33,944 nucleotides of DNA, taken from Kiritimatiellia bacterium. Its GTDB lineage: Bacteria; Verrucomicrobiota; Kiritimatiellia; SS1-B-03-39; UBA6053. Every line of letters starts with the position of its first letter. The stretch's first letter is position 1. Location: NCBI GenBank assembly GCA_029936175.1, contig JAPYUI010000015.1, positions 9,815 to 43,758 on the forward strand, read 5' to 3'. The notes below the pieces were generated by a model that was not told the origin of the DNA, ran no database searches, and worked only from the letters and a program-made list of their open reading frames with translations. Both the position numbers and the translations under genes were made by a program. Of this stretch, positions 12,138 to 33,489 are shown piece after piece.

Positions 12138-12164
12138 GGCTGGAGGATGGAAAGATAAAGATGA

Positions 12165-13043: not shown

Positions 13044-13147
13044 AGCAATCCTCCCGGCGATGGGCGGGCTTCGCCCCGGTCAATTCCCCAGGGGAAATCT
13101 ACACACTGTGCTAACATGTCGGGTGCGGTCGCCATGACCGTATGGTT

Positions 13148-13636: not shown

Positions 13637-13646
13637 TAGCGTACCG

Positions 13647-13741: not shown

Positions 13742-13988
13742 TCGAATTTACCAATAACATTAGTTTTATAAGTTATTCCGCTAGAACATGTTGTACTCGT
13801 TACAGAGTAGTCATACGCCACCCTCTTGATAACGCATTCATGCCATTGCCACTTGTCTTGACGATGGCTCGCCTGTAAATGCTTGTCGGAAGATGGATGC
13901 CCTTTTGCCATGCCCCCATCAATACCGATAGATCGATGCACTCCAGCTCAGTACTTTCACCAGGAAAACATGAATCGAAATACTCGGG

Positions 13989-15371: not shown

Positions 15372-15477
15372 TGAGGGATCTGGCTAAGGCAGGTACACGA
15401 GGTCTTTTCATCCGGGCAAATCCCGACCGAGACAGCGCGATCCCTCCTGCACCAAGGGAGGACACTGCAGGACGGAA

Positions 15478-16578
15478 CTAGGGGACCGCCTTGCGGTTCT
15501 TGACCCAGGCGTGTAGGGCTGGCCGGAGAGCGGACCAGGCCTTTTTGTCACTGCGGACATCGACAAAGGCATCGTACAGCTCAAACAACATTTCCCGAAA
15601 CTCGTCGATCTTTATCACGCGTCCCTGGAAGCGGCTCATAGGATCCAGCTTCTCTTCGTCTTCAGGTAGCCTCATCGTGCGGATGGTGAATTCGCTCGCG
15701 TCGAAATTTCCGGACCAAACCTCTTCACCACGGACGAAGCTGATCTTGCACTTGGCCAACTTCTTGCCGGCCATCAGGCTCGCCTGGGCTTCCATGCTCA
15801 CGGTCGGGTTGCCTTTGCGAATCACCGATTCGTGGGCACCCTCCCCTTCCATGTAAAAGGTCAATGGGCCTTCAATGAAGACCGAGATATCGCCTTGCCG
15901 GGTCTTGATGTACTGCTCCTCGGTCTCGGAACGGTACCAGAGCCAGGTGGCGAAATCGTGCCCGGGATCCTCGCTCACGCAGGTGTCATCGACCTTGGGC
16001 GAAAAACTGCTCGGATACCAGTCGCGCACGTCTACGCGTTTGCGCGCACGTGCCAGCGTCTCCGGGCTAACCGGCTCAGGCGCAATACCGGTTGTGTGCC
16101 GCATATGCATGATGAACACATCCGCCTGCGTCTCGCTGATCGCATCTGTGTAGATAAACAAGTCTGCCGGATCGTGCACGAGGTCGATGCCGTTTAACTG
16201 CGGCGGCATCTGCGGCAGCAGGCGCTCCACCAGCTCCTGGCGAAGCTCCGCCCGCTCCTTGCGCGAGACGTAATCCGCTTGTTTCATCTCCAGGCGCAGC
16301 AACTCCTCCTGCTTCATCTCGGCTTTCAACAGCGAGGATGGAATCTTGCGCTCAGCCTTGACCAGGGTCAGGCGGAGATACCCCGAGGGATAGGCGGTAT
16401 CCTCGGTGATTGTACGATCAAAAAGGTGGCGACCGGTGACCCAGCCAAAAATCACGTCTTCCCCGAGGGACTCAAGCGAAGGCAGGGAATGATCGGCAAA
16501 GCGCTCGATAACCCCTTCCTCGAACCTCCGGGGGAGGGTAAACATGCGCAGACTGACAGTGCCGGATTCAAAGGACAT
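15478..16578 (-). CDS. RdgC-like (recombination-associated) protein, divergent
   Basis: Arrangement resembling RdgC: YLRLTLVKAERKIPSSLLKAEMKQEELLRLEMKQADYVSRKERAELRQELVERLLPQMPPQLNGIDLVHD; C-terminal REMLFELYDAFVDVRSDKKAW. Remote, by-eye similarity. Start at MSFESG chosen. Confidence 0.5.
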   Translation of the reverse strand: MSFESGTVSLRMFTLPRRFEEGVIERFADHSLPSLESLGEDVIFGWVTGRHLFDRTITEDTAYPSGYLRLTLVKAERKIPSSLLKAEMKQEELLRLEMKQADYVSRKERAELRQELVERLLPQMPPQLNGIDLVHDPADLFIYTDAISETQADVFIMHMRHTTGIAPEPVSPETLARARKRVDVRDWYPSSFSPKVDDTCVSEDPGHDFATWLWYRSETEEQYIKTRQGDISVFIEGPLTFYMEGEGAHESVIRKGNPTVSMEAQASLMAGKKLAKCKISFVRGEEVWSGNFDASEFTIRTMRLPEDEEKLDPMSRFQGRVIKIDEFREMLFELYDAFVDVRSDKKAWSALRPALHAWVKNRKAVP

Positions 16579-16709
16579 GGTATGGAAATGCCAAAAAGGA
16601 TTAATGTACAATGACGAAGCTCGGGTGTCTATCCGAGACGCATAGCCTTGTCACTTAAATAGTGCTGCACTTATAACTGGTCGCCGCCAGGATGGGTGCA
16701 GGAAACCAC

Positions 16710-17549
16710 TCAAGCCAGGCGATAGATACGACTGGCGTTGCCGCCGAAGATGGCTTCCCGTTCAAGCTCCGAACGCTCACCGATACAGGCGCGGAAGAAC
16801 TGAAGCGCTTGTTGATAAGGCTGCCCGTCCGGAAAAACCGGCCAGCCACTCCCCCAGATCAAGCGGTGGGTGCCAAAGGTTTCCGCCAGGAACTGCATCA
16901 GGTCCCGGCCCCGGTCTTCATCGCCATCGCTGATTGCCTGGAGACCCGAACATTTGACCGCGAGCAGCTCATGCGCTGCGAGCAAGCGCAGCCGCTCTTC
17001 CCACTTCGACCGCTCCACCCCCTCCGCCGGCGGAGCCGCACAGGCATCGAGAATCATCCGGCAATCGGGCTTATTCTCCAGCAATATGCCAAGGCCATCC
17101 AATTGGTCGGCATCCACCTGGAGCTCGAGTACCAGGCCCTGCTCGGTCAACATGTCCATCGCCCGGGACACGGTGGGATGGCCAGCCCACTCTTTCACCG
17201 GACCGGCGAGGCGGGAACGGATACCCTTGCAGCCCGGCCACTGCGTGAACGCTTCAAGCCAGAGCTTAAGGCTGTCCTGCAGGAGATCTGCACCGAGCAC
17301 GACCGCCTTTAAATACGGGCAGTACTCGGTGACCTCCAACCACCAGATATTGTAGGCGTAGGATGACTTATCCGCCTCGATGATGACCCCCTCCCGCACC
17401 CCCGAATCATGCAGCAGGGGCTGGAGATCAGGCGGAAGAAAACTGGTCTGTAAATCCGGGCGCGACGCCAGCCACTCCGTTTGGCGATAGGAGGCGTAAT
17501 CCCATATATGAATATGGGCATCAATGATGCTGGCAACTGATGATTCCAC
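16710..17549 (-). CDS. Amidohydrolase-2 family TIM-barrel metal-dependent hydrolase (L-fuconolactonase-like)
   Basis: IIDAHIHIWDYASYRQTEWLASRPDL...GVIIEADKSSY...CKGIRSRLAG...HRLIWGSGWPVF. Confidence 0.8.
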   Translation of the reverse strand: MESSVASIIDAHIHIWDYASYRQTEWLASRPDLQTSFLPPDLQPLLHDSGVREGVIIEADKSSYAYNIWWLEVTEYCPYLKAVVLGADLLQDSLKLWLEAFTQWPGCKGIRSRLAGPVKEWAGHPTVSRAMDMLTEQGLVLELQVDADQLDGLGILLENKPDCRMILDACAAPPAEGVERSKWEERLRLLAAHELLAVKCSGLQAISDGDEDRGRDLMQFLAETFGTHRLIWGSGWPVFPDGQPYQQALQFFRACIGERSELEREAIFGGNASRIYRLA

Positions 17550-17759
17550 GGGAAACAGGGAGGAGACGCGACTATTTAACTATAAAGCCCCCGCCCAGCA
17601 CAATACATTTAAGCCGCATCGGGAAAACCCGCATCACGGGTGCCTGGAACAGGTTCGGTAATGCCACCGCTTGCATGGGTGGCCTTCCATGCCCAAACCC
17701 CACCCCATGGACCGGGCAATGGAGGAGCGCGCCGATTCACGAACTCCGATCACCTGCGA

Positions 17760-19307
17760 CTACCCGACATATTTCTTCGCATCGATACCGTACTTATGGA
17801 CCTTGTAACCGAAGATGCGCTGGGTCGTTTTAAGGCTTCGGGCTGCAGAAGCCATGTTCCCTCTCGTCGACTTGAGCGCGTCGACAATCAAGTCCCGCTC
17901 GAAGCTGTCCACGGACTCCTTGAGCGATGACTCGGGGCGCCGACCGGTCGCTTCAGCCGTCTGCAGGGTCGGCGGAAGATGATGCGGGTACACAACATCG
18001 CCCTCGGTGAGAAGCACCGCACGCTCAACCATATTCTCCAACTCCCGCACGTTGCCAGGCCAATGATACGAGTAGAGCATGTCGATCACCTCGCTACTTA
18101 GCCGCCGCACATCTTTTCCACTGTCCCTTGAGTACTTTTCCAGGAAGTGATCCGCGAGGAGCAGAATATCACTCTTGCGCTTGTGCAGGGGTGGGACAAA
18201 GATCGGGAATACATTCAGGCGATAGAACAAGTCTTCCCGGAACTTGCCTTCGGCGGACATGGCCTGCAGGTCCTTGTTGGTGGCGGCAATCAGGCGCACA
18301 TTGACCTTAATCGTTTTTACGTCTCCGACCCGCTCGAATTCGCGTTCCTGGACAACCCGCAGCAACTTGATCTGGATGCTCGGAGGAATCTCGCCGATCT
18401 CATCCAGGAACAGGGTGCCGCCGTCAGCCAGTTCAAAACGCCCTTTTCGATCACCGGTTGCCCCGGTAAAGGCCCCTTTCACATGACCGAAAAGCTCGCT
18501 CTCGATAATATTCTCCGGCAGGGCGGCGCAGTGCGCCTTTACGAAAGGTTTATCCGAACGATCGCTGTTGTAATGAATCGCTGCGGCCACCAGTTCCTTG
18601 CCCGTCCCGGTTTCTCCCTGGATCAGTACACTGGTCGCGCTCGAGGAAACCTGGGCAATCTGGTCGTAGACCTCCTGCATTTCATGGGAGGTCCCGATGA
18701 TGTTCGAAGGCCGAAAACGATCTTTCAACTGCTCGCGAAGCAACTGGTTTTCCTCCTCCAACTTGTGGCTGTTTTCCTGCGCCTGCCGACGAATCTCCGC
18801 GGCCTGCGCCACCAGGGAAGCGACAATCTGCAGGGCATCCGAAAGCGAATTCAAATCGGTGGTATCGTCGTAATCACGATCCACACTCAAGGTGCCAATG
18901 ACGTTCTTTCCCGCCTTGATCGGCACACAGATAAACGACATTTCGCCGGTTGCCCGCTCGGTCCGGTTCAGGTACAAGGGTGATTCGAGCGTTTTCTTGA
19001 TGATCATCGGATCGCCGGACTGGGCAACCTTTCCCGTGACGCCTTCGCCGAGTTTGTAACGCCCACGACTGGTCTGCTGCGGGGTAAGCCCCAGTGCGGC
19101 CTCGATCTGCACCTCGTTGGTTGCACGATTGAAAATCGTCATGGTTGCGTGGCGAGCCAGGAGATGCTTGCTGATACACTCCATAATCGGGTTGACGATC
19201 CGCTCCATATCGAGGGTCTTCTCAAGGATTTGTGCGATCTCAAGAAACAACAGCGTACCGTCCACCTTTCCGGGTTGGGTCACGCTTATCTTTTGTTTTG
19301 CGGCCAC
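17760..19307 (-). CDS. Sigma-54-dependent transcriptional activator, NifA-like (GAF + AAA+ + Fis-type HTH)
   Basis: N-terminal GAF-like domain (ISKHLLARHATMTIFNRATNEVQIEAALGL); GETGTGKELVAAAIH; GAFTGA motif (HVKGAFTGATGDRKGRFELADGGTLFLDEIGEIP); C-terminal NMASAARSLKTTQRIFGYKVHKYGID. Confidence 0.94.
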   Translation of the reverse strand: MAAKQKISVTQPGKVDGTLLFLEIAQILEKTLDMERIVNPIMECISKHLLARHATMTIFNRATNEVQIEAALGLTPQQTSRGRYKLGEGVTGKVAQSGDPMIIKKTLESPLYLNRTERATGEMSFICVPIKAGKNVIGTLSVDRDYDDTTDLNSLSDALQIVASLVAQAAEIRRQAQENSHKLEEENQLLREQLKDRFRPSNIIGTSHEMQEVYDQIAQVSSSATSVLIQGETGTGKELVAAAIHYNSDRSDKPFVKAHCAALPENIIESELFGHVKGAFTGATGDRKGRFELADGGTLFLDEIGEIPPSIQIKLLRVVQEREFERVGDVKTIKVNVRLIAATNKDLQAMSAEGKFREDLFYRLNVFPIFVPPLHKRKSDILLLADHFLEKYSRDSGKDVRRLSSEVIDMLYSYHWPGNVRELENMVERAVLLTEGDVVYPHHLPPTLQTAEATGRRPESSLKESVDSFERDLIVDALKSTRGNMASAARSLKTTQRIFGYKVHKYGIDAKKYVG

Positions 19308-19317
19308 AACATTCTCC

Positions 19318-21027
19318 TCAATCCAACTCCCGATACCGGTTGGTGATGGGCATCCGACGGTCTTTACCGAAGGCTTTTGGGGTGATTTTTACCCCGGGCG
19401 GGGCTTGGCGGCGCTTGTACTCATTCAAATCAACCAGGCGGATCACCTGGGAGACGATTTTCGGGTCAAATCCCTCGGCAACAATCGCGTCGCGCCCCTG
19501 GTCCCGCTCCACGTAGCGTTCCAGGATCTGATCCAGCACGGCGTATTCCGGCAGGGAGTCGGAGTCCTTCTGATCCGGTCGAAGTTCAGCCGAAGGTGGC
19601 CGATCAATCGTGGTCTGCGGGATAACTTCGCGGCCCTCCGCTACATTTCGCCAGCGACAGAGATCGAACACCAGGGTTTTCGGAACATCCTTGATCACCG
19701 AGAACCCGCCGCACATGTCACCGTAGAGGGTGCAGTAACCCGTCGCCAACTCACTTTTGTTCCCTGTCGCGAGGACGAGATGACCCAGCTTGTTCGACAG
19801 GGCCATGATGATGGTTCCACGAATGCGTGCCTGGATATTTTCCTCGGTCACGTCGGTTTCGCGGCCCGGCCATAGCACCTCCAATTCAGCAAGGAAGGTG
19901 TCGACCAGCGCCTGGATTGGAACGGTTTTAAAATCGATACCCAGGCTTTGGGCCAGCAGACCGGCATCGCTCAAGGTGCCTTCGGAAGAATACTGCGAAG
20001 GCATGGTCACGCCGAGGACCCGGTCCGCGCCAAGGGCGTCGACCGCAATGGCCGCAACGAGCGCGGAATCGATACCACCGCTGATCGCGATAATGACCTG
20101 CTTGAAACCATTTTTGTTCACGTAGTCACGCAGGCCCGTCACCAGGGCGGTATACACTTCAGGAAAATCATCCAGTGGCTCAGGGGCATCGGTGCGATTC
20201 GCAAGGTCCGCCTCGAGAGCCGGCACCTGTTCATCGATGAAGATATACTCGACCTCCGGATTAACGGCGGGTGAAATCACCGATGGCACCGCCTTGTCAT
20301 CCACGGCCACCAGGAGCATCTCCTCGGTAAACTGTCCGGCACGGGAAACGATGGCATTTCCTTCGAGCATGAGGCTGGCGCCATCAAAAACCAGCTCGTC
20401 CTGGCCGCCGACGAGATTGACATACAGCAAGGGGGCGTTCACCGCCTCGGCGGTTTTGCCAAGGATGTCGATGCGCTTGAGCAATTTTCCCCGGGCATAC
20501 GGGGAAGCGGAAAGGTTGATCACGGCGTGGATGCCAATTTCGCGCACACCGGCCGCGGTTTGCTCGGGGAACCAGGAGTCCTCGCAGATGTGAACCGCGA
20601 GTTTATACCCGCCAACTTGCAGGCAGACTTCGCGGTCACCTGCTTCAAACACGCGTTTTTCATCGAATACGCCGTAATTCGGGAGTAGCTGCTTGTGGTA
20701 CACGCCGGCCATTCGTCCGTCTGCAAACATGACGGCGGAGTTGCGTGCGCGCTTTTCGCCACGCGTCGGGCAACCGACGATGCAGATAATGTTACGCGGA
20801 AGCTCCCCGGCCAGCCGATCCAGTTGGCGGGCACAATCCGCCACGAAATGCTCCTTGAGGATCAGGTCTTCCGGGGGATATCCGCTGACGGCGAGCTCTG
20901 GAAACACGGCTACCTGCGCCCCCTGCTCGGCCGCCTCACGGGCACGCAGAACGATCCGGGTCGTATTTTCATCCAGGGCTCCCAGGGTCGGGTTAAACTG
21001 GACCAAAGCTATTACAAGGCGACTCAT
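19318..21027 (-). CDS. nadE: Glutamine-dependent NAD+ synthetase (C-N hydrolase domain + NAD synthase domain)
   Basis: MSRLVIALVQFNPTLGALDENTTRI...VFPELAVSGYPPEDL...CEDSWFP; ISGGIDSALVAAIAVDALGADRVLGVTMPSQYSS. Track start 21063 lies inside a terminator hairpin, so start set to 21027. Confidence 0.95.
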   Translation of the reverse strand: MSRLVIALVQFNPTLGALDENTTRIVLRAREAAEQGAQVAVFPELAVSGYPPEDLILKEHFVADCARQLDRLAGELPRNIICIVGCPTRGEKRARNSAVMFADGRMAGVYHKQLLPNYGVFDEKRVFEAGDREVCLQVGGYKLAVHICEDSWFPEQTAAGVREIGIHAVINLSASPYARGKLLKRIDILGKTAEAVNAPLLYVNLVGGQDELVFDGASLMLEGNAIVSRAGQFTEEMLLVAVDDKAVPSVISPAVNPEVEYIFIDEQVPALEADLANRTDAPEPLDDFPEVYTALVTGLRDYVNKNGFKQVIIAISGGIDSALVAAIAVDALGADRVLGVTMPSQYSSEGTLSDAGLLAQSLGIDFKTVPIQALVDTFLAELEVLWPGRETDVTEENIQARIRGTIIMALSNKLGHLVLATGNKSELATGYCTLYGDMCGGFSVIKDVPKTLVFDLCRWRNVAEGREVIPQTTIDRPPSAELRPDQKDSDSLPEYAVLDQILERYVERDQGRDAIVAEGFDPKIVSQVIRLVDLNEYKRRQAPPGVKITPKAFGKDRRMPITNRYRELD

Positions 21028-21046
21028 CATACACGAAGAACTGAAG

Positions 21047-21076
21047 AAAAGCCCTCCGGACACCCGGAGGGCTTTT
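21047..21076. terminator. Intrinsic (possibly bidirectional) terminator downstream of glutamine synthetase
   Basis: Perfect 13-bp arms AAAAGCCCTCCGG / CCGGAGGGCTTTT with ACAC loop. Confidence 0.85.
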
Positions 21077-21158
21077 CCTAATAAACGTGGTGCTTAGAAC
21101 CAGGCGCTCGAGGCTTCCACCATCCAAGCACCACGCGGAAGAGAGCGGCAGTGCCGCC

Positions 21159-22175
21159 TTAGGCTAACGCTTCTTTTGTCGTCTTGATAATGGCGGATGC
21201 AATCTTGTACGGGTCACCATTTGACGCAGGCCGCCGGTCTTCCAGGCGACCCTTCCAGTCATCCTGGACCGTCGTCACCGGGATGCGGATTGATGCGCCG
21301 CGATCGGATTCACCGTAGCTGAACTTATCGATGGCCTGCGTTTCGTGCAGACCCGTCAAGCGCTGGTCGTTGTCGGCACCATAGACACTGATATGACGAT
21401 CGATATTCTTGGCGAAAGCCTCGCAAATAGTGGTCATCATTTCCTTCCCGCCCTGGTCACGCATGGCACCATTGGAGAAGTTGGCATGCATGCCTGAACC
21501 ATTCCAGTCGCCCTTGACCGGTTTCGGGTGCCAATCGACCGCGATACCGTATTTCTCGGCCGTACGCTCACAGAGGTAACGCGCCATCCATATCTGGTCG
21601 CCGGCGCTCCCGGCACCCTTGGCAAAGACCTGGAACTCCCACTGGCCCGCCATCACCTCCGCATTGATTCCCTCCACGTTGAGACCCGCCTCAAGGCAGT
21701 AGTGCAGGTGCTCATCCACGACATGGCGACCGAAGGTATTCCGCGCACCTACGGATGTGTAGTAGGGACCTTGCGGTGCGGGAAAGCCGTTCTCGGGGAA
21801 ACCCAGCGGCTGGTTCGTGTCCACATCTATCAGGGTGTATTCCTGCTCAAAACCAAACCAGAAATCAGCATCATCATCGGTTATCGTCGCGCGCCCATTG
21901 GACTCGTGCGGCGTACCGTTATCATTTAACACCTCGTTCATTACCAGCCACCCGTTGCCCCCAAAACGATCCGGGTCCGGGTATACGGCGACGGGTTTGA
22001 GCAGCGTGTCGGACTCGCCGCCACCGGCCTGCTCGGTAGACGATCCATCAAAATTCCACATCTTCGCATCCTCCAGCTTTCCGCTGAAATCATCTGCGAT
22101 CAGGGTTTTGCTGCGGAGAGACTGAGTCGGCTTGTAGCCGTCCAGCCAGATGTACTCCAGTTTATGCTTAGCCAT
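21159..22175 (-). CDS. Glutamine synthetase, type II (GSII/GlnII-like)
   Basis: LEYIWLDGYKPTQSLRSKT...WNFDGSSTEQAGGGESDTLLKPVAVYPDP; FGFEQEYTL; NGSGMHANFS; RLTGLHETQAIDKFSYGESDRGASIRIP; ~338 aa as in GSII. Confidence 0.95.
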   Translation of the reverse strand: MAKHKLEYIWLDGYKPTQSLRSKTLIADDFSGKLEDAKMWNFDGSSTEQAGGGESDTLLKPVAVYPDPDRFGGNGWLVMNEVLNDNGTPHESNGRATITDDDADFWFGFEQEYTLIDVDTNQPLGFPENGFPAPQGPYYTSVGARNTFGRHVVDEHLHYCLEAGLNVEGINAEVMAGQWEFQVFAKGAGSAGDQIWMARYLCERTAEKYGIAVDWHPKPVKGDWNGSGMHANFSNGAMRDQGGKEMMTTICEAFAKNIDRHISVYGADNDQRLTGLHETQAIDKFSYGESDRGASIRIPVTTVQDDWKGRLEDRRPASNGDPYKIASAIIKTTKEALA

Positions 22176-22311
22176 TACTATTTTACTCCTCTTACTTGGT
22201 TCAGGTTTTGAAACGCAAAGAACACGTTCTGAATTAACGAGATTCTGTTGATATACCGTTTTGAAGGTATGACAAGATATTTATACGAAAAGGTATTAAC
22301 AGGTTATCATG

Positions 22312-22327
22312 GATACATTTTTGTATC
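22312..22327. repeat. Inverted repeat GATACA-TTTT-TGTATC upstream of glutamine synthetase
   Basis: gatacatttttgtatc read directly; 6-bp arms, 4-nt spacer. Confidence 0.6.
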
Positions 22328-22432
22328 AATCAGGCGGTACCATTCCCCTGGTAAGGAACGCCTGGGGATAATGATCGTTCCGCGGAACTGAGCGCATCGC
22401 GGTGGCCTTCGCGTCGCTGCGGTTAAGACAAC

Positions 22433-23443
22433 TCAGCCATTTGACCGGGCGATCAAGGTGTCCAGCTTGTCTCGCGCCGCGCCGCTATCGATCGATGCCT
22501 GTGCCTGTTCGACGCCTGCAGCCATGCTTTGCGCGTCCCCCCCGGAACAAATCGCCGCCCCGGCATTCAGCACCACGATGTCACGCCTCGGCCCCTCTTC
22601 CCCTTCAAGGATCGCCCGGGTGATCGCGGCATTCTCACCCGGCTCGCCGCCGACCAGGTCATTCGGTTTTGCACGCTCCATCCCAAAATCTTCGGGTTTG
22701 ATTTCGAAATGGTTGATGCCGCCGTCGTGCACCTCGCCGATGATCGTTTCGGCCGTGTTGGTGATTTCGTCCAGGCCATCGCGTCCGTGAACCACGAACA
22801 AGTGCTCCGAACCCGTCGCCGCGGCGGCATCGGCCACCAGTTTAACCAAGTCCGAATGGTACACCCCCAGCACACCACGTTTGCTGCTCGCGGGATTGGA
22901 AAGCGGTCCGAGAATATTGAAAATGGTGCGAATACCCAATTCGCGCCGCGGACCGATAGCGTGTTTCATCGCTGGATGCAGGGATGGCGCGAACAAAAAT
23001 GCGATGCCGATTTCGTCCAGACATTGTGTCATGAGCTCCGGGGCAACCGTGATATCCACCCCGAGCTCCTTGAGCACATCCGCGCTGCCACACTTGCTGG
23101 ATACGCTGCGGTTTCCGTGCTTCGCCACGGGTACGCCGGCTCCGGCGGTGACAAATGCGGCCGTCGTAGAAATATTAAAGGTATGGGTCCCATCGCCGCC
23201 CGTCCCGCAGGTGTCGACGATGCGCGCGTGCTTGGTTACAACGGGGGTGCAGGCCTCGCGCATCGCCTCGGCGGCACCGGCGACGACTTCGGCGGTCTCC
23301 CCGACCATGCGCAAGGCGGTGATAAACCCCGCAATCTGGGCATCGCTAGCCTCCCCGGACATAATGGCTTTAAGCGAGTGGTAGGCCTCATCCCGGGTGA
23401 TGGGCTGGCGGTCGACGAGCTTGGCGATGGCTTGTTTAATCAT
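22433..23443 (-). CDS. trpD: Anthranilate phosphoribosyltransferase
   Basis: IVDTCGTGGDGTHTFNISTTAAFVTAGAGVPVAKHGNRSVSSKCGSADVLKELGVDI; VFLFAPSLHPAMKHAIGPRRELGIRTIFNILGPLSNPA-type block (FLFAPSLHPAMKH...). Confidence 0.96.
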   Translation of the reverse strand: MIKQAIAKLVDRQPITRDEAYHSLKAIMSGEASDAQIAGFITALRMVGETAEVVAGAAEAMREACTPVVTKHARIVDTCGTGGDGTHTFNISTTAAFVTAGAGVPVAKHGNRSVSSKCGSADVLKELGVDITVAPELMTQCLDEIGIAFLFAPSLHPAMKHAIGPRRELGIRTIFNILGPLSNPASSKRGVLGVYHSDLVKLVADAAAATGSEHLFVVHGRDGLDEITNTAETIIGEVHDGGINHFEIKPEDFGMERAKPNDLVGGEPGENAAITRAILEGEEGPRRDIVVLNAGAAICSGGDAQSMAAGVEQAQASIDSGAARDKLDTLIARSNG

Positions 23444-23480
23444 AGGGGGAATCTAGGGCTAAACCCCGGGAAAATTAAAC

Positions 23481-23549
23481 CACGAAATACACGAAATGAA
23501 CGTAGGCCGGGACGGCTACCTTTTCTCGCCCGCGAAGGACCGGGGCTAC
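23481..23549. repeat. Candidate extragenic repeat: tandem ACGAAATAC/ACGAAATGA plus GTAG...CTAC hairpin
   Basis: cacgaaatacacgaaatgaacgtaggccgggacggctaccttttctcgcccgcgaaggaccggggctac; imperfect hairpin GTAG(G)CCG-GGA-CGGCTAC at about 23502-23519. Confidence 0.3.
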
Positions 23550-24685
23550 AGGCCAAAGCGCTTGAACTCTTCAATCGCATAGCGATCGGTACATCCCGCG
23601 ACGTAATCACAAACCGTGCGCTCGAGGCCTTCTGACGCGATGCGGCCCCGGGCCTTCAAGCCCAGGTCCTCGGGGTGGTCGAGGTAATGGAGGAAGAGGC
23701 CTTTCATCATCTCAACCGCCTCATCGTTGGCGGATTTCACATCGGGGTGATAATACAGGTGGTCGAACAGGAAGGTCCGGAAGGGCTCGAGCATACTGCG
23801 CATCCCTTCGCTGAAATCAACCAGGCGATCGGGTGCATGCATGACCTCGTCGGGCGACCCGGGCTTCCAGGCATCAGCGCGTTCACGAACGAGCTCCAGC
23901 ACGTCTTCGATCTGGACGGTAAAAAGGCAGCGGATGACGGTTGGCGCGAGTCGATCGGCGGGGCAAGCGGGATATTCCTTCATCACCCGGTCACGGGCAA
24001 AACGCCAGAGCTCCAGTTGCTCCAGCTCCGCTTCGTGGATGAGCCCGGCATCCAGGCCATCCGCGACGTCATGGGCCTGGTAGGTGATGTCATCCGCGAT
24101 GTCGGCGATTTGACCTTCTGCATATTGAAAGGGACCGATCGGGTACCCGTCGAGCATGCGCCCGGCATCACGGCTCTCGTGCTTGCGCAATCCCGCGCGC
24201 ACCTCCCAGGTCAGGTTGCAGCCGTCATGACCGGGATAATCGGCCTCCAGCAATTCTACCCAGCGAAGGCTCTGCTCATTGTGGTCAAAGCCCCCGTGGT
24301 CGGCCATCAATTCATTCAAGGCGCGTTCCCCACAATGGCCAAAGGGGCTGTGCCCGATATCGTGCGCGAGGCAGATACAGGCCGTGAGGTCCTCGTTCGC
24401 CCGCATGGCCCGGGAGAGCGTTCGCCCCACCGAGGCCATCTCGATGGTGTGGGTGAGCCGGGTGCGGTAATGGTCAGCTGTACCGTTGATGAAAACCTGG
24501 GTCTTGTACTCGAGCCGACGAAACGATTTACAGTTCACGATCCGGTCGCGGTCGCGCTGGAAATCCACCCGCCGGGAATGCCGGGACTCGGGATGAACGC
24601 GCCCGCGAGACTGGGAGCTCCGCGCCGCAAAGGGCGAAAGCCAGGCCTCTTCCAATTTCTCTCGTTCTGTTCTCGATTGTATCAC
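23546..24685 (-). CDS. Deoxyguanosinetriphosphate triphosphohydrolase-like HD protein (dGTPase)
   Basis: RDRIVNCKSFRRLEYKTQVFINGTADHYRTRLTHTIEMASVGRTLSRAMRANEDLTACICLAHDIGHSPFGHCGERALNELM; HD motif. Track ORF starts at 24808, but GTG at 24685 avoids overlap with the divergent NUDIX gene. Confidence 0.92.
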   Translation of the reverse strand: MIQSRTEREKLEEAWLSPFAARSSQSRGRVHPESRHSRRVDFQRDRDRIVNCKSFRRLEYKTQVFINGTADHYRTRLTHTIEMASVGRTLSRAMRANEDLTACICLAHDIGHSPFGHCGERALNELMADHGGFDHNEQSLRWVELLEADYPGHDGCNLTWEVRAGLRKHESRDAGRMLDGYPIGPFQYAEGQIADIADDITYQAHDVADGLDAGLIHEAELEQLELWRFARDRVMKEYPACPADRLAPTVIRCLFTVQIEDVLELVRERADAWKPGSPDEVMHAPDRLVDFSEGMRSMLEPFRTFLFDHLYYHPDVKSANDEAVEMMKGLFLHYLDHPEDLGLKARGRIASEGLERTVCDYVAGCTDRYAIEEFKRFGL

Positions 24686-24708
24686 GAAGGCTACTATATG
24701 TTGTCGCC

Positions 24709-25242
24709 ATGATCGAAAAAACACTAAATTCGGAGATCGTTTTCGACGGACTGATCTTTGATGTCGAGCGGTTGGAAATCGGTCGCGAAGACGGCAGCCG
24801 TTCCGCACGGGACGTTATCCGGCACCACGGTGCGGTCGCGCTGGTCACGCGCAAACCGGATGGTCAGTATGTATTCGTCCGCCAGTACCGCAAGGCGGTC
24901 GAGCAGATGATGCTCGAGATCGTGGCCGGAACCCTGGAAAAGGGCGAAGACCCCGTGGACTGCGCCAAGCGCGAACTCCTGGAGGAAACCGGGTACATCG
25001 CGGACGAAATCACCCACCTCGGGGCCATCTACCCCTCCCCCGGCTACGTCGATGAGAAGATCGACCTCTATTTCGCGCCGGTCACCGGCGAAGGCCTCGG
25101 CGTACCCGACGCAGACGAACGGCTCGAATCGCTTGAGATGAACCACGCGGAAGTCGAGGCTGCGATCACGGACGGGACCTTCACCGATGCGAAGTCCCTC
25201 GCCGCATGGATGCTCTACTGCCGAAAGGTTTATGCCCCCTGA
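24709..25242 (+). CDS. NUDIX hydrolase (ADP-ribose pyrophosphatase-like)
   Basis: Nudix box GTLEKGEDPVDCAKRELLEETGY; downstream SPGYVDEKIDLYFA. Confidence 0.93.
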   Translation: MIEKTLNSEIVFDGLIFDVERLEIGREDGSRSARDVIRHHGAVALVTRKPDGQYVFVRQYRKAVEQMMLEIVAGTLEKGEDPVDCAKRELLEETGYIADEITHLGAIYPSPGYVDEKIDLYFAPVTGEGLGVPDADERLESLEMNHAEVEAAITDGTFTDAKSLAAWMLYCRKVYAP

Positions 25243-27191
25243 TGGAGACGCGGATTGATTACGCAAACGAGTTAAACGCCGAGCAGTTTGCCGCGGTCCA
25301 GGCGCCTGACGGCCCGGTCCTGATCATCGCCGCGGCGGGTACCGGGAAGACCCGCACCCTTGTGTATCGCGTGGCCTGGCTGGTGGAACAGGGGGTCCCG
25401 CCCGGCAGCATCCTGCTCGTGACCTTCACCAACAAGGCCGCGCAGGAAATGCTCGACCGTGCCCGCACACTGGTCGGGCCCTCGGTCAGCGGCTTGTGGG
25501 GCGGCACCTTCCACCACCTGGCCAACCGTATCCTGCGCCGCCATGCCGAAGCCCTGGGCTACGGGACGGATTACGGCATCATCGATTCCGACGACCAGCG
25601 CAGGCTGGTCAAGCAAATCGTCGCGGACCTCGGGCTCAAGGACAAGCAATTCCCCAAGCCGGACGTCCTGCTCAGCGTCTTCAGCTATGCGATCAACACC
25701 GAGACCCCGGTCGAGGACGCGGCCTTTGATCGATTTGAACATCACCCGATCGAGATCCAGGACATCGTCCATGTGCACGCCGAGTACGAGAAGCGCAAGC
25801 GTACCATGAACGCAATGGACTTTGACGACATGCTCGTCAACTGCCTCGCGCTGCTGGAGGAACAGGAAAGTGTGCGCACCCACTACCAGGAACAGTTCCG
25901 CTACATCATGGTGGATGAATTCCAGGACACCAACGTGATCCAGTCCAAGCTCGTGGAACTGCTCGCCGCCCGGCACCGGAACATCCTCGTGGTGGGGGAC
26001 GACTTCCAGAGTATCTACGCCTGGCGGGGGGCGGACTTCCGGAACATCATTGACTTTCCCGAGGAGTACCCGGAAGCAAAGGTCTACACGCTGGAGACCA
26101 ACTACCGCAGCGTGCCGGAGATTCTCGCGGTGGCAAATCAATGCATCGCGGGGAATCCCGATCAGTTTCAAAAGGAACTCCGCGCGGTGCGCGACCCATC
26201 CGGGAAACCGCGTACGGTCTACGTGCAGAATGGCCATCAACAGGCGCATTACATCATTGAGACCATCCGAAACCTGCAACGCGAGGGCTACCCCCTGCGC
26301 AGCATGGCGATCCTGTACCGTTCCCATTTTCACTCCATGGAGATCCAGTTGGAGTTGGCCCGACAACGCGTGGCCCATGTCATCACCTCCGGCGTCCGCT
26401 TTTTCGAGCAAGCCCATATCAAGGACCTCTGCAGCCTCCTGCGCCTGGTTCACAACCCCGCCGATCAATTGTCCTTCGGCCGCCTGCTGGGCCTGCTGCC
26501 CGGCGTGGGGCCCAGGACGGTGCATAAGATCTGGCTCCTGATCGGGGAACGATTTGCCGTGAGCAACCCCTCCACCCGCACCCAGGTCATGAACGCCGTG
26601 CCGAAAAAAGCGCTGGCCCTATGGCAGAAAATAGACCCTATTTTCGACTGCTACACCGATGAGGATCTCCGCCGGAATCCCAGCGAAATCATTCACCTGT
26701 TCAACCGGGACTTCTACGATCAATTCGCGGTGGAGACCTTTGAAAACTACCCGCGTCGCAAGGAGGATATCAACGAGTTGATCGACTACGCGACCCGGTT
26801 CAGCAGCCTGGATGACTTTCTCAGCGAACTGGCCCTGGTAACCAACATCGAGGCCGAGGAGGCCCGGGCCAGCGGCGAGGAGGACGCGATCCGCCTCTCG
26901 ACCATCCACCAGGCAAAGGGGCTCGAGTTCGAGGTCGTCTTCGTCCCCTGGCTGACCGAGGAGATGTTCCCCTCCGGCCGGGCGATCGACGATGACCCAT
27001 CGGCCTCCGAGGAACGGCGCCTGTTCTACGTGGTGACCACCCGGGCCAAGGACGAGCTCTACCTGCTGATCCCGGAATACCGCCGCAAGCGCGATGGCGG
27101 AATCCAGTACTTCAACCCCTCACGATTTATCGAGGAGCTGGACGAGGACCTGGTGGAAAAATGCGAGCCCGGGTATTTCCACACGCTATAG
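25242..27191 (+). CDS. UvrD/Rep/PcrA-family ATP-dependent DNA helicase
   Basis: LNAEQFAAVQAPDGPVLIIAAAGTGKTRTLVYRVAWL; VDEFQDTN; VGDDFQSIYAWRGAD; LSTIHQAKGLEFEVVFVPWL. Start METRIDY at 25242 overlaps the NUDIX stop (TGATG). Confidence 0.95.
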   Translation: METRIDYANELNAEQFAAVQAPDGPVLIIAAAGTGKTRTLVYRVAWLVEQGVPPGSILLVTFTNKAAQEMLDRARTLVGPSVSGLWGGTFHHLANRILRRHAEALGYGTDYGIIDSDDQRRLVKQIVADLGLKDKQFPKPDVLLSVFSYAINTETPVEDAAFDRFEHHPIEIQDIVHVHAEYEKRKRTMNAMDFDDMLVNCLALLEEQESVRTHYQEQFRYIMVDEFQDTNVIQSKLVELLAARHRNILVVGDDFQSIYAWRGADFRNIIDFPEEYPEAKVYTLETNYRSVPEILAVANQCIAGNPDQFQKELRAVRDPSGKPRTVYVQNGHQQAHYIIETIRNLQREGYPLRSMAILYRSHFHSMEIQLELARQRVAHVITSGVRFFEQAHIKDLCSLLRLVHNPADQLSFGRLLGLLPGVGPRTVHKIWLLIGERFAVSNPSTRTQVMNAVPKKALALWQKIDPIFDCYTDEDLRRNPSEIIHLFNRDFYDQFAVETFENYPRRKEDINELIDYATRFSSLDDFLSELALVTNIEAEEARASGEEDAIRLSTIHQAKGLEFEVVFVPWLTEEMFPSGRAIDDDPSASEERRLFYVVTTRAKDELYLLIPEYRRKRDGGIQYFNPSRFIEELDEDLVEKCEPGYFHTL

Positions 27192-27205
27192 CGGGGCCAG
27201 GCAAG

Positions 27206-27228
27206 CAAAGCGGGGCCTTCCCGCTCTT
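27206..27228 (+). terminator. Likely intrinsic terminator after helicase gene
   Basis: AGCGGG-GCCTT-CCCGCT hairpin followed by CTTTAA. Confidence 0.45.
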
Positions 27229-27323
27229 TAATGCCCAGCGGCAAGAGTCCACCCGCTGCGACGAGCCCTTTCGGGTCAATCATTTTAGTTGAAACAGCGT
27301 TCACTTTCCCCTAGGTTGCGCCC

Positions 27324-28865
27324 ATGTCTTCAACCCTGTCCAAGGTCTTTTCAGGCGGCATCTTCGGGATCGACGCCTTCACGGTGGAAATCGAGGTCGA
27401 TGCCGGCCATGGCGACCCGAAAATCGTGATGGTGGGCCTGCCGGACATGGCGGTCAAGGAAAGCCAGGACCGGGTGTGGACCGCCCTGCTCAACAGCGGA
27501 TTCGCCCCGCCGCCGGGACGCACCACGATCAACCTCGCGCCCGCCGACGTGCGGAAGGAAGGGCCTTCGTTCGACCTGCCGATCGCCCTGGGCATGCTCG
27601 CGGCGACCAACCAGCTGAACCAGGGCGCACTCGAGCCCTACACCGTCATCGGCGAGCTCGCGCTCAGCGGCGAAGTCCGCAAGGTGAAGGGTATCCTCCC
27701 GGTGACCCTGAACGCCCGCGAGGCGGGGCGCGAACGGATCATCGTGCCGACAAGCAACGCGGAGGAGGCCGCGGTCGTCGAGGGGATCGAAGTCTACCCG
27801 GCGAACAACCTGCGCCAGGTCGTCGAGTTCCTGAACGGCAACGAGGATATCCCCGCCAAGCGGGTCGATCTCGAGAGCCTCTTCGACGTGGCCAGCCAGT
27901 ACGAGGTCGACTTTGCCGAGGTCAAGGGCCAGGAGTACGCCAAGCGCGCCATCGAGGTGGCGGTCGCGGGGGGGCACAACCTGCTCAAGATCGGTCCCCC
28001 GGGAACCGGCAAGACCATGATCGCGAAACGCATCGCGTCGATCCTTCCACCCATGTCGCTCGAGGAAGCCCTGGAAACGACGAAGATCCACAGCATCGCC
28101 GGCACCCTGCCGGCCAAGCAGGCCCTGATCGGGAAGCGCCCCTATCGCTCGCCGCATCACACGGTGTCGGATGCCGGCCTGCTCGGCGGCGGTGCCTACC
28201 CCGTCCCGGGTGAGGTGAGCCTGGCGCACCACGGGATTCTTTTTCTCGACGAGCTGCCCGAGTTCGCGCGCAATGTGCTCGAGGTCATGCGCCAACCCCT
28301 CGAGGACGGCCAGGTCACGATCTCGCGTGCGGCCGCGACCGTGACTTTCCCCTGTCAATTCATGCTGGTCGCCGCGATGAACCCCTGCCCCTGTGGGTAC
28401 CACGGCGATTCGCAGCGGGAATGTCGTTGCTCACCCAAGCAAATCACCAGCTACCGCAACCGGATCTCCGGCCCCCTGCTCGACCGGATCGACATCCATA
28501 TCGAGGTGCCCTCGGTGAACTACAACGAGCTCTCGAGCATGGAACCCGGAGAGCCCTCCTCCGCCATTCGCGAGCGGGTCATCCGGGCCCGGAAAACCCA
28601 GCAGGAGCGTTTCAGCGATCTCCCCCACGTCCATTGCAATGCCAACATGGGCGCGCGTGAACTGGCGAAGTACGGTCTCCTCCAGCCGGAAGCCCAGGAG
28701 ATGATGAAGATGGCGATCAACGAGCTGAATTTCAGCGCCCGGGCCTACGACCGTATCCTCAAGGTCTCCCGCACCATCGCCGACCTCGCCGCCAGTGAGA
28801 CCATTGAGGGTGAGTACGTGGCGGAAGCGATCCAGTACCGCACCCTCGACCGGCAACTGTGGTAG
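27324..28865 (+). CDS. comM: YifB/ComM-family Mg-chelatase-like AAA+ ATPase
   Basis: VEIEVDAGHGDPKIVMVGLPDMAVKESQDRVWTALLNSGF; INLAPADVRKEGPSFDLPIALG; IGPPGTGKTMIAKRIASILPP; FRSPHHT-type PYRSPHHTVSDAGLLGGG. Confidence 0.96.
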   Translation: MSSTLSKVFSGGIFGIDAFTVEIEVDAGHGDPKIVMVGLPDMAVKESQDRVWTALLNSGFAPPPGRTTINLAPADVRKEGPSFDLPIALGMLAATNQLNQGALEPYTVIGELALSGEVRKVKGILPVTLNAREAGRERIIVPTSNAEEAAVVEGIEVYPANNLRQVVEFLNGNEDIPAKRVDLESLFDVASQYEVDFAEVKGQEYAKRAIEVAVAGGHNLLKIGPPGTGKTMIAKRIASILPPMSLEEALETTKIHSIAGTLPAKQALIGKRPYRSPHHTVSDAGLLGGGAYPVPGEVSLAHHGILFLDELPEFARNVLEVMRQPLEDGQVTISRAAATVTFPCQFMLVAAMNPCPCGYHGDSQRECRCSPKQITSYRNRISGPLLDRIDIHIEVPSVNYNELSSMEPGEPSSAIRERVIRARKTQQERFSDLPHVHCNANMGARELAKYGLLQPEAQEMMKMAINELNFSARAYDRILKVSRTIADLAASETIEGEYVAEAIQYRTLDRQLW

Positions 28866-28954: not shown

Positions 28955-29002
28955 GTGAGGGGGGCAATCAAATGGAATGAATGGAGCCCGTACCCCCCTC
29001 AC
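28955..29002. repeat. Inverted repeat spanning the end of the PQQ-protein gene in the convergent intergenic region
   Basis: GTGAGGGGGG (28955-28964) and CCCCCCTCAC (28993-29002), perfect 10-bp arms, 28-nt spacer. Confidence 0.7.
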
Positions 29003-32000
29003 TCCTTCTCATACGCGATGATCAACTCGGGTGGGGCTATGCCTTCTCTGGAATCGTATCGGATTCCATCGGTTGAGGTCGGACGTAACAGGATCGAAAT
29101 TTCACTGAGCCCATCGAGTTGAATCGCGAGAGGACGTTCGACAAATTCCTTCTCCCCTACCATTCCGATGACCCCGATTTTCCTCTTCGCCAACGGCCGG
29201 TGGGCAAAAGTGATCTTCTTTTCATCCCATTCGCCTTCGACGGTATAGACCGCCCCGGCATCCTTACTGCCCGGTCCTCCACATTTCAGCCTCAATTTGA
29301 CCGCGATTGGTTTACCGGGCAAATCAGCGAGACTGAACTTGATGAAAACCATCCCGTAGTCCACATCTCCCATGTTGGATCCACCGCCATCCACGGCAAT
29401 CGACTTGTTATTACCCTCGTTCCGATCAGGGTACTTCTGCGACACCCGACTATCAGCAACCGGATTCAATGAGACCGTCGGCTTGCCCGCCGGCCATTCA
29501 GGCATGGTGTAGAGACTGGGTGGCTTTGGCTTATCCAGATCCGCCGTCCGAATGATTTCGATCGCGTTGATTGAAGGAACCGCTCCAGACCGGTCTGACA
29601 GGGCCAACTCCATTTCCAGGTAATCAAAAACCTCAATGCCCTTGATTTCCTTCACGACCTCCAGAAAGGCGCCACCCGCCTCTTGGTCGATCCTAAAATC
29701 AGAAGCAACCATTTCCTCCTGCACGAAGATATTGAAGGGCCGGTTGAGCTTGGCGAGCTTCTCTGTCTCAGCGAAGTAGAGCCGCACCGTGTAAATACCC
29801 GGCATGTCCTTCTTACCGATGACAGGAATACCAAAGCGAACATTGCCACGATAACCACTGGTATGCAGCCAGGGGCGTTTCGATCCGCGGACCTTGCCCA
29901 CTGCGGAAAGTCGACGCTCAATCTTCAATTGGGTTCCTTCCACATCAAATCCGAGCTTCAATTCCAGCTCCCGCGTCTTGGAACTTCCTTTCGGCCGGGG
30001 ATAAGCCAGCCAGAGTTTTCCATCCACATCACGACGATCTCCCGGTGCGCCGAGATTAACGCTCAGGTGCTTGATCGGCAGGGTCTCCCCTGGAGCATTG
30101 AAGACACCCCAACCCCGGTCCTGATCCTCGTTCACCGGCTCAAGAGTGACGGTGGATTGAATGGCAAAAAGACACTGGCAGCCAGCGCTTGCCTCCGGAA
30201 TATGCACCAGACCATTGGCGGGAATCATATTGATGGTGCAGCCCGTGCGCATCCCGGCAAAGTGCGTCACACCATTGTCCTTGTTTAAATCGTAATAGGC
30301 CGTGGAAGCACTGCGGAAAAACATGATATTTTCCGTGGCTGCCACATGCCCGCAATGATGTCCGGAACGAATGAACCGCCATGGAGTCTCTTCGCCTGTG
30401 GTGGGGTGTTTCCTCATCTTGGGCTTCCCGGTGTAAAGGTCATACGCCCATGGTTCAGCGATGATGGTATCACCCGCCATGATCGGACGGATGCGATAGT
30501 CTGCCTCCCTGGACCAGAGTTCCTGACCCGTCCCCGCGTCCACCACCGACACCTTGCGCTGCTTGAATTCCCCGGAGATAAATTGATCCCAATAATGGCC
30601 ATTGCCACTGGCACCGGCTAAAACCAGTTTCCCATTCTTATACATCATCATCAATTCACCATGACTGCGATGAATCCCCGTACACTCGGTAAGGTCGAGC
30701 GCATCGGTCCAAAGTTCCTTCCCTGTCTGCAAGTCCAGAGCCACCGCCAGTTGGAGATCTGCCGCCTTGATCCGAGCCTCCGCAATCCGCTTTTCCTCAC
30801 CCTTGAGCCGCGCCAGCTCAGTCTTGTCCTTCTGGAGTTCCGCCTCCCTTTGCCAAGCGGTCATCTTGGAGTTGATCAAAAACGCCTTGTCATCACCCAG
30901 GGCAATGCAGAGCTGCGCAATGTTATTGCCCGAATAGGTCCACAACAGTTTCTTGCTGACCACGTCGTAAGCAAAAAGAGCCTTTGAATAATTGGCGCTC
31001 AAAAGGTCTGAAATACTCCCGACCAACACCTTCCCGTTCAGCCCCAAATATCCCCACTTGCTCTTACGGTTCTTAAGCGCTTCCGGAAGCGGGTAAACAT
31101 GCAGGAGCCTACCCGTCGCTGGATCGAATTGCTGACATTCCGTCTGGGTGGCCAGAAACACGCCTTTCTCCGAAGCCACAATCGCCCCCGGAAAGGTCCG
31201 CGTTCTCAAGCGCGGTCCGCCGGTATAGGACTGCTCCCAAAGCTTGGTTCCATTGTAAGCGTCATAGGCAAGAACGACACTCCGCCCAACAATGAACATG
31301 CGTCCATCCAACGCGACAGGAGGTGAGCCCTGGGTATGACGATTGATCATGTCGGTGGGCCCCGGATCCCCAAACCACAAGACCCCGAGTGGTGCTTTCA
31401 ATCGCGATTCCCGGCTTGAGGAGGTGTTCCCCGAATTGGCGTATTGATGCGTCCATGCTCCGGCTCCTGCAAGCCCTCCGCGCGTCACTCTCCCTCCTTC
31501 AACAGGACCGAGCTCCAACGAGTTCAGGAACGTAGCCACTTTGGGTTCAAACTTCTTTTCCCCCTTCGATTTTTTATCAAATAGCCCGAGCATCACCGTG
31601 CCTCCCAAAGGCCGCACCGTCCGCGCCACGTCTTTCGGGTTCCCTGGAATCCGTCCATCGAAGAACGCTGATTCGGACACCACCAAGTTGGCAAAATAGT
31701 TTGAGAAAGGAAGCTGGTTGGGATCACCATGAGCCACACTGATGCGCGAACCATAAAGCCCTGTCTTCGCCAATATTTTCCGAACCTTTGCGACAATGGA
31801 TGCATCCGATTCGATGGCGATAATCTTTAATTCACTTTGCTTCGCCAATTCATAGGCCATTTCACCCGTTCTCAGCCCCAATACCAGGCAGAATCCACGG
31901 CCGGGGTTTGCCTGTTCCAGCATGGCAGCCACTTCGTTCCGAATCAGTTCGGACATGTCCCCGCTCGGGAAGTGAAGGGCTCCTGGATCATCTGCACGCA

Positions 32001-33489
32001 CAACAGTGGGAGCTATTACATCACCCGCCTGAAAACAATAAATCCGGCCGGTATCAGAGCTCACCAACAACGAGCCATTGGCGACGGCCAAACCCGCTGC
32101 CTTCCCATCCACCTTACCGCGCCAAACTTCCTTTCCTGTCTTCGCATCCAGTCCCACGACAAACCCACCACCACCTGCGAACAACATGTCAGGTGTTCCA
32201 ACCAATGAGGCATTCGCTTCGATCGAGGTCGTCCAGATAGTGGCCTTGCCTTTGGATTCCTTTTCGAAGGTGGCTTCCTCCCTGGTCAACCTGGCGAGCA
32301 AGGCCTTCAACTCGGGAACCTCCTTCTTCAAGGCCTCGATCCTGACCTCATTTCGCACCTTCTTCTTTTCCTCTTCCCGCAATTCTGCACGCCTGACCGC
32401 ATAGAGATACTGTGGATCATCTTTTTCCCGCCCATCATGACGCTGCTTCATCTCCAGAAGCTTGCGCGTGGCTTCGGCATACTTGTTCCGATAAATCGCT
32501 TCAATGGTTTCGTCACCGACCATGTAGGAAATCTCACCATCAATCACCGTGCGACGCCCGGTAAACCAACCAAAGCCCGTGCGGCCGGTTTCAGCATCAA
32601 AGGCGACATTCTGATTGGCCCCACAAAGAAGCTGGCCATCCACCAAGACGCCATAGGTGCCTCCAATAATTCCCGACGCCCGCCAGCTACTGTTGGCCTG
32701 GAACTTCATGCGCCCATCCTTGCGATAAAACGCCGCCGGCAAATCACGACCGGAAGGCGAATACAACAACTCGTCCGTGGCCAACAAATACCCCTGCGGG
32801 GAAAAGCGGTTACGATTCGAGTTCTCTGCACCGAGCCCATCATTCATCCAGATCTTGGCTCCTGTTTCCGCATTGAACGCAGCCATCATTACGCCCTCAT
32901 GGGGAAATACGCCTGCACCGCAGTAGGCAATTCCATCTTCCACAATCACATCGGTGCGCAATGGCCAGCGTGAAATCATGCGTCCATTGCCGAGCTGACG
33001 CCGCCCATCCGGCCCGAGATACGCGCTCCAGATCGCCTTGCCCGAAAGGGCATCCAGACAATAGAGCCGTCCATCATCCGAACCGAAATACAAACGCCCA
33101 TCTGCAATCGTCGGTGCCAGGCGAACAGGACCCCCGGTGAAGAAGGTCCAACGGATCTTCCCTGTTTTTAGATTGAGACCGTAGACCTGGTCATCCGCTG
33201 ACGAACCGAAGTAAACATGGTTCCCACCCACCGTAACCTGGAAGGCATTGTCATAATCCACGCGATGGACTTCTTCATGGCCTTCAACAACACCCGGGAT
33301 CGGCGCTTGCCAAGCAGCAGCGGGCGCACTTGGGGAAACAAAGGTCCATATATTCACCAGTGACGACGGGATGGATTCCGAGGTTCGTCCACCGCGGGAG
33401 TAATCATGAAGGTGGGTCGGCCAGTCTTCTGAAAAAGAGGAAAAGGAAGTCGCAAAGAATAGGATAGCGATCAAAGCCGGGAAAAGCAT
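28999..33489 (-). CDS. Secreted multidomain protein: PQQ-like beta-propeller repeats, embedded methyltransferase-fold segment, malectin-like domain, DNRLRE-like C-terminus
   Basis: Signal peptide MLFPALIAILFFATSFSSFS (start at 33489, not 33636). Repeats such as VYGLNLKTGKIRWTF, LYCLDALSGKAIW, VVGLDAKTGKEVWRG. MTase-like CLVLGLRTGEMAYELAKQ...IAIESDASIVAKVRKIL. Malectin-like GIYTVRLYFAETEKLAKLNRPFNIFVQ...PSINAIEII. C-terminal SLNPVADSRVSQKYPDRNEG...VFIKFSLADLPG. Confidence 0.85.
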   Translation of the reverse strand: MLFPALIAILFFATSFSSFSEDWPTHLHDYSRGGRTSESIPSSLVNIWTFVSPSAPAAAWQAPIPGVVEGHEEVHRVDYDNAFQVTVGGNHVYFGSSADDQVYGLNLKTGKIRWTFFTGGPVRLAPTIADGRLYFGSDDGRLYCLDALSGKAIWSAYLGPDGRRQLGNGRMISRWPLRTDVIVEDGIAYCGAGVFPHEGVMMAAFNAETGAKIWMNDGLGAENSNRNRFSPQGYLLATDELLYSPSGRDLPAAFYRKDGRMKFQANSSWRASGIIGGTYGVLVDGQLLCGANQNVAFDAETGRTGFGWFTGRRTVIDGEISYMVGDETIEAIYRNKYAEATRKLLEMKQRHDGREKDDPQYLYAVRRAELREEEKKKVRNEVRIEALKKEVPELKALLARLTREEATFEKESKGKATIWTTSIEANASLVGTPDMLFAGGGGFVVGLDAKTGKEVWRGKVDGKAAGLAVANGSLLVSSDTGRIYCFQAGDVIAPTVVRADDPGALHFPSGDMSELIRNEVAAMLEQANPGRGFCLVLGLRTGEMAYELAKQSELKIIAIESDASIVAKVRKILAKTGLYGSRISVAHGDPNQLPFSNYFANLVVSESAFFDGRIPGNPKDVARTVRPLGGTVMLGLFDKKSKGEKKFEPKVATFLNSLELGPVEGGRVTRGGLAGAGAWTHQYANSGNTSSSRESRLKAPLGVLWFGDPGPTDMINRHTQGSPPVALDGRMFIVGRSVVLAYDAYNGTKLWEQSYTGGPRLRTRTFPGAIVASEKGVFLATQTECQQFDPATGRLLHVYPLPEALKNRKSKWGYLGLNGKVLVGSISDLLSANYSKALFAYDVVSKKLLWTYSGNNIAQLCIALGDDKAFLINSKMTAWQREAELQKDKTELARLKGEEKRIAEARIKAADLQLAVALDLQTGKELWTDALDLTECTGIHRSHGELMMMYKNGKLVLAGASGNGHYWDQFISGEFKQRKVSVVDAGTGQELWSREADYRIRPIMAGDTIIAEPWAYDLYTGKPKMRKHPTTGEETPWRFIRSGHHCGHVAATENIMFFRSASTAYYDLNKDNGVTHFAGMRTGCTINMIPANGLVHIPEASAGCQCLFAIQSTVTLEPVNEDQDRGWGVFNAPGETLPIKHLSVNLGAPGDRRDVDGKLWLAYPRPKGSSKTRELELKLGFDVEGTQLKIERRLSAVGKVRGSKRPWLHTSGYRGNVRFGIPVIGKKDMPGIYTVRLYFAETEKLAKLNRPFNIFVQEEMVASDFRIDQEAGGAFLEVVKEIKGIEVFDYLEMELALSDRSGAVPSINAIEIIRTADLDKPKPPSLYTMPEWPAGKPTVSLNPVADSRVSQKYPDRNEGNNKSIAVDGGGSNMGDVDYGMVFIKFSLADLPGKPIAVKLRLKCGGPGSKDAGAVYTVEGEWDEKKITFAHRPLAKRKIGVIGMVGEKEFVERPLAIQLDGLSEISILLRPTSTDGIRYDSREGIAPPELIIAYEKE

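Follow-up and report, generated by a model that had tools for sequence, protein, structure and literature searches.

An exported two-propeller protein with an eroded methyltransferase-like domain, probably part of a conserved envelope system, in a Kiritimatiellia bacterium

Analysis of a 33,944-nucleotide stretch of a Kiritimatiellia bacterium contig (JAPYUI010000015.1; this whole stretch is hereafter called the window) and of the relatives of one of its genes suggests that this gene encodes an exported two-propeller protein with a captured pseudo-enzyme domain (M) and, as its likelier functional centre, a cysteine site in the second propeller, and that the protein is part of a conserved envelope system; we put the probability of this reading at about 0.6. 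A class I methyltransferase domain would have been captured into an exported protein with two propellers (P1 and P2) and would have become a pseudo-enzyme there, held between P1 and P2 either as a rigid linker or as a pocket that accepts some ligand in place of methyl-donating SAM. The M protein would then be the large extracytoplasmic (periplasmic or surface) member of an envelope system that also comprises an exported protein family (designated c6), an FtsX/LolD-like set and a double ModA-like importer, sometimes with ThiF/ThiS. Because it occurs together with this transporter cluster within the phylum, the M protein is probably part of an undescribed cell-envelope system and not a working methyltransferase. 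A literature search for the architecture and the gene set, which covered open-licence papers, found no description of either; each of the domains is known, and what was not found within this literature is an exported, eroded methyltransferase between propellers and its association with c6, FtsX and ModABC-like genes.

The gene is a minus-strand open reading frame (28999..33489) that encodes 1496 amino acids free of internal stops. A Sec signal peptide (about residues 1-20; 33430..33489, minus strand, as are all features below) is followed by propeller P1 (residues 21-486; 32032..33429), which was delimited by PQQ_2 matches, AlphaFold strands and helices, and Foldseek, and which has a helical insertion at residues 334-416. 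Domain M occupies residues 500-665 (31495..31992), and P2, as judged from AlphaFold and family conservation, extends over residues 666-1120 (30130..31494), starting near WTHQYA..GNT. A malectin-like domain (about residues 1131-1320; 29530..30099) and a CBM96/DNRLRE-like C-terminal domain (residues 1338-1492; 29014..29478) complete the protein. In a Pfam scan of the full protein, PQQ_2 matched in four stretches (E=8e-41, 140.6 bits against a cut-off of 27.6), and Malectin (PF11721; E=3.1e-7, 31 against 23 bits) and CBM96 (PF24517; E=2.3e-13, 50.7 against 26 bits) also exceeded their cut-offs; the C-terminal domain scored under the cut-off of the NCBIfam DNRLRE model. Repeated PQQ-propeller blades, a malectin-like domain and a DNRLRE-like C-terminus had all been recognized in a sequence-only reading of the window, whose positions for M and the malectin domain were right to within a few residues. 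The predicted structure of the P1-M-P2 body (AlphaFold2, pLDDT 91.9, pTM 0.92) agrees with the PQQ_2 matches in giving PQQ-type beta-propellers, and its nearest solved folds in Foldseek were BamB (E=1e-21), tetrathionate hydrolase and PQQ alcohol dehydrogenases. Neither a PQQ-dependent alcohol dehydrogenase (NCBIfam TIGR03075, 50.5 against 480.05 bits) nor BamB itself (equivalog TIGR03300, 69.6 against 285.2 bits) was indicated by the corresponding models. The C-terminal modules differ between homologues, many of which have no sequence beyond P2 (about query residue 1118), and the carbohydrate-binding modules are variable add-ons.

Export of the protein, also proposed from the sequence alone, is borne out by its relatives: in about 60 homologues whose true N-terminus is displayed, a hydrophobic signal peptide was seen by eye directly before the motif DWPTY.HD..RSG. 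The ATG at 33489 gives the window gene an n-region without positive charge, and an in-frame ATG at 33636, upstream of the open reading frame start, would add 49 amino acids; comparison with homologues makes a true start close to the hydrophobic stretch the likeliest. It had been suggested that M might act before export, which is unlikely because Sec substrates traverse the membrane unfolded.

Several lines of evidence indicate that M is related to class I methyltransferases. Methyltransf_25 stayed under its Pfam cut-off of 27 bits on the full protein (23.7 bits, 8e-5) and passed it when the M segment was scanned alone (28 bits, 3.7e-6), and 64 of the 75 members of the M alignment matched this family (best 1.6e-13). 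The M profile matched methyltransferase 3dlc in the PDB at E=1.5e-16, and a model of M alone, built with 74 homologues, was confidently predicted (AlphaFold2, pLDDT 88.5, pTM 0.86), with all PDB matches listed by Foldseek being class I SAM methyltransferases or proteins sharing that fold. A chance match is ruled out by the profile, the predicted structure and the Methyltransf_25 membership taken together, and M has a genuine class I methyltransferase fold of the Rossmann type, in agreement with the sequence-only reading.

The SAM-binding signature is eroded. When six canonical class I residues were scored over 75 M homologues, none had all six and nine had five. Only two homologues still have the motif I acid, and 73 have lost it; in the GxGxG motif, the first and last glycines are common (67/75 and 69/75), whereas the middle one is found in only 23 and lost in 52. 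In the window protein, the eroded motif I GFCLVLGLRTGE (residues 532-543; 31861..31896) has V536 in place of the acid, and R540 replaces the middle glycine, so that GxGxG reads GLRTG. The acid at the end of strand 2, at the ribose-binding position, is retained as E560 (31810..31812) and is D or E in 68/75 homologues, and the adenine-site position is D or E in 25/75. The surroundings of the pocket ('LPYSNYFANLIVSD') are strongly conserved. Moreover, the motif I block has a mean information of 2.36, inside the range of the propeller blocks, and such conservation implies that it is under selection and not freely decaying. Selection acts on the fold and on a portion of the pocket, and not on the end that would hold the methionine part of SAM. 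From these sequence patterns, M is most likely a pseudo-methyltransferase that has presumably lost methyl transfer; loss of the motif I acid lowers the likelihood of SAM binding without excluding or disproving it. That M may be degenerate had been raised as one way out of the paradox of an extracytoplasmic SAM methyltransferase. The fold and the export that made up this paradox both stand, whereas the paradox itself is largely removed by the erosion of the SAM signature across the family.

The strongest conservation lies in P2 instead. Residues 1081-1120 form the most conserved block (information content 3.01), and four cysteines (C1046, C1084, C1104 and C1106; 30172..30354) are present in all 73 homologues that cover them. 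The CxC together with an upstream cysteine recurs in relatives with permuted or split layouts. This four-cysteine site is more likely than M to be the functional centre of the protein, and we infer that the quartet binds or handles a thiol, soft metal or sulfur species outside the cytoplasm, with the caveat that the cysteine motifs of P2, c6 and the FtsX permease can also simply form disulfides.

The family is large and widely distributed. Scanning of genome contigs with the single protein gave no matches; with a four-sequence alignment as query, at least 556 relatives were recovered; the 80 that were kept belong, according to the titles of their records, to Planctomycetota, Verrucomicrobiota, Lentisphaerae, Kiritimatiellota, Armatimonadota, Hydrogenedentota and Omnitrophota. 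The distribution in Planctomycetes and Verrucomicrobia expected by the sequence-only reading was thereby confirmed. Among the matches listed, those closest to the window protein came from a Roseibacillus MAG (55%) and an Akkermansiaceae MAG (54%); in the tree they are its sisters (support 1.0), which makes a verrucomicrobial origin of the window probable. Many paralogues are present in the genome of the window gene, and three layouts were distinguished: P1-M-P2 (type A, that of the window gene), signal peptide-M-P2-P1 (type B), and a split pair of M-P2 and P1. The type B paralogues of the same genome (L027, L029, L030, L031, L032 and L034) group as a single clade (support 1.0), and M is still weaker in the permuted paralogues, being under the Pfam cut-off or undetected. 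The split pair consists of adjoining genes on contig C333 of this genome (L023:4816-8705), in which the M-P2 protein has an fn3-like N-terminal domain and falls inside type A in the tree. Taken together, these layouts and the tree placement show M-P2 to be the stable unit.

Invariant P2 cysteines and permuted or split relatives had been missing from the sequence-only reading, as had a transporter gene cluster linked to the family. Of 80 loci fetched, many with short flanks, 22 had at least one partner (c6, the FtsX set or the binding-protein set) near the M gene, and the same was seen in several other genomes. The c6 family comprises exported proteins with the motif AC.VPVFRYALE.W, a conserved CxC (38/38) and often a C-terminal membrane anchor (e.g., L047:4740-5861, L108:4271-5584 and L139:7366-8530, among others), and in many genera and phyla its gene directly adjoins the M gene or is divergent to it. 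The second partner set consists of an FtsX/LolC-like permease with a periplasmic CxC (25/26) and a LolD-like ATPase; the third, of a doubled ModA-like binding protein (SBP), a ModB-like permease and a WtpC-like ATPase. These genes are arranged in operons with ABC ATPases, and some clusters include genes for ThiF (sometimes with rhodanese), ThiS and TauE/SafE. The SBP passes the TIGR01256 ModA cut-off (96.9 against 62.5), and the permease and ATPase linked to it score under the equivalog cut-offs. Genes for a sulfur carrier and an oxyanion importer suggest that the chemistry involves molybdenum/tungsten or sulfur. Tungsten-dependent aldehyde:ferredoxin oxidoreductase (AOR) was considered as a client of the importer and rejected, as just 4 of 289 genomes encode it and M is absent from all four.

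Co-occurrence was assessed in a sample of 289 genomes of the same phylum, in which M was scored at E<=1e-22. Genes for c6 were detected in 32 genomes, the double SBP in 28, FtsX in 24 and M in 16, and nearly all M genomes had every partner (c6 16/16, SBP 16/16, FtsX 15/16; hypergeometric p 4e-19 to 8e-18, values that ignore relatedness). The M genomes belong to 15 families, so a single clade is insufficient as an explanation. Several of the other c6 genomes have weaker M matches in open reading frames of more than 1000 amino acids. We infer that the linked genes act together with the M protein.

Other genes were also seen at loci of the family. A tandem pair of FtsX-like permease genes lies behind c6 at L199:10703-16968, and beside them is a gene that by eye resembles a TonB-dependent receptor (L199:10703-12703). 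A protein with a hydrazine synthase alpha middle domain (PF18582) is encoded near a homologue of the window gene (L050:1475-3985), and a small 4Fe-4S ferredoxin-like open reading frame lies with a membrane-like one within a binding-protein cluster (L195:7581-8457).

It might be argued that M has only a structural role, as a Rossmann-fold relic that keeps the propellers apart, and that the protein as a whole serves passively as a scaffold or adhesin of the envelope and is equipped with carbohydrate-binding modules. The eroded SAM signature, the even weaker M of the permuted paralogues, the well-ordered prediction for P1-M-P2 and the variable C-terminal modules are all consistent with this; however, the strong conservation of the ribose acid and of the pocket surroundings is not what a mere spacer would suggest, and an invariant cysteine quartet and near-obligatory transporter partners would be odd for a passive scaffold, which makes this explanation unlikely on the whole.

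The surroundings of the window gene bear on a second alternative. Its upstream side runs into the contig end, and its other neighbour is a convergent YifB/ComM-type gene. In the same genome, contig C501 carries both c6 and FtsX, and contig C111 the SBP operon; none of these genes adjoins the window gene, and at the loci of the two closest relatives among the matches listed (L045 and L046) the partner genes are likewise absent. The position of c6 at the extreme end of C501 raised the possibility that it is physically linked to the window gene over a contig break; this was rejected, as no N-terminus or start of c6 could be read upstream of the window gene. Elsewhere in the window (10776-28865), the neighbours that were checked are ordinary: a Wzt-type ABC ATPase, a GDSL/TPR protein, an RdgC-like protein, a sigma-54 activator, NAD synthase, a short glutamine synthetase-like protein of 338 amino acids, a TrpD-type phosphoribosyltransferase, an HD hydrolase, a UvrD helicase and YifB/ComM. 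The linkage seen in other genomes could accordingly reflect a shared lifestyle only, with the M protein being a quinoprotein-like dehydrogenase or a hydrolase of an extracellular substrate that is co-inherited with an unrelated Mo/W-type uptake operon. The isolation of the window gene itself would fit this, as would the fact that P1-M-P2 resembles, in addition to BamB, PQQ alcohol dehydrogenases and tetrathionate hydrolase; nevertheless, c6 lies immediately beside or divergent to the M gene across many genera and phyla and the NCBIfam quinoprotein models remain far under their cut-offs, and we regard this explanation as rather doubtful.

Finally, that M is an active extracytoplasmic SAM methyltransferase, using SAM that is exported or scavenged via one of the linked ABC systems, is very improbable: small-molecule methyltransferases are its best matches and nine homologues come within one residue of a full signature, but the motif I acid and middle glycine are lost in most of the family, a periplasmic SAM pool is not known, and the linked importer resembles the oxyanion systems ModABC/Wtp and not a SAM carrier.

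The preferred reading, an exported protein with a captured pseudo-enzyme in a conserved envelope system, can tentatively be made more specific. It is possible, if short of probable, that the family supplies the extracytoplasmic core of a so far undescribed envelope system of Planctomycetota, Verrucomicrobiota and their neighbours, in which three exported or membrane proteins that each have a conserved CxC (the M protein, c6 and the FtsX-like permease) would pass a soft metal, oxyanion or sulfur species between the periplasm and the double ModA-like importer with ThiS/ThiF chemistry, the exported methyltransferase fold having been repurposed for a new ligand. An exported methyltransferase fold that is present in hundreds of genomes without the motif that marks SAM binding would be a clear case of extracytoplasmic repurposing of a cofactor enzyme. 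Through near-perfect co-occurrence with a defined gene set, a giant protein recognized only as secreted becomes a multi-gene system open to testing, in phyla with poorly understood envelopes, and the association offers a first handle on the widespread c6 family.

Compared with known systems, M shares with class I SAM methyltransferases (Methyltransf_25/11; 3dlc, RebM 3bus and TleD 5gm1) the fold, the strand-2 acid and the local motif spacing, whereas it is exported, has valine for the motif I acid and a broken GxGxG, and is inserted between two propellers. The blades and the N-terminal W.TY..D motif are common to the window protein, BamB/PQQ-type propellers (PF13360) and PQQ alcohol dehydrogenases; unlike these, the window protein has two propellers plus M and four invariant cysteines, and does not reach the quinoprotein equivalog cut-offs. 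Tetrathionate hydrolase (6l8a), among the top Foldseek matches, is an extracytoplasmic propeller of the same fold, but it has a single propeller, lacks M and is only about 13% identical. The linked transporter genes resemble ModABC/WtpABC in that the SBP scores as ModA and the permease and ATPase are similar to ModB and Wtp; they differ in the doubling of the SBP and in permease and ATPase scores below the equivalog level. The partner c6, which had no match in Pfam or the PDB, sets the cluster apart from known ABC systems, and the linked permease, which has the FtsX fold in common with LolCDE/MacB-type systems, adds a conserved CxC to it.
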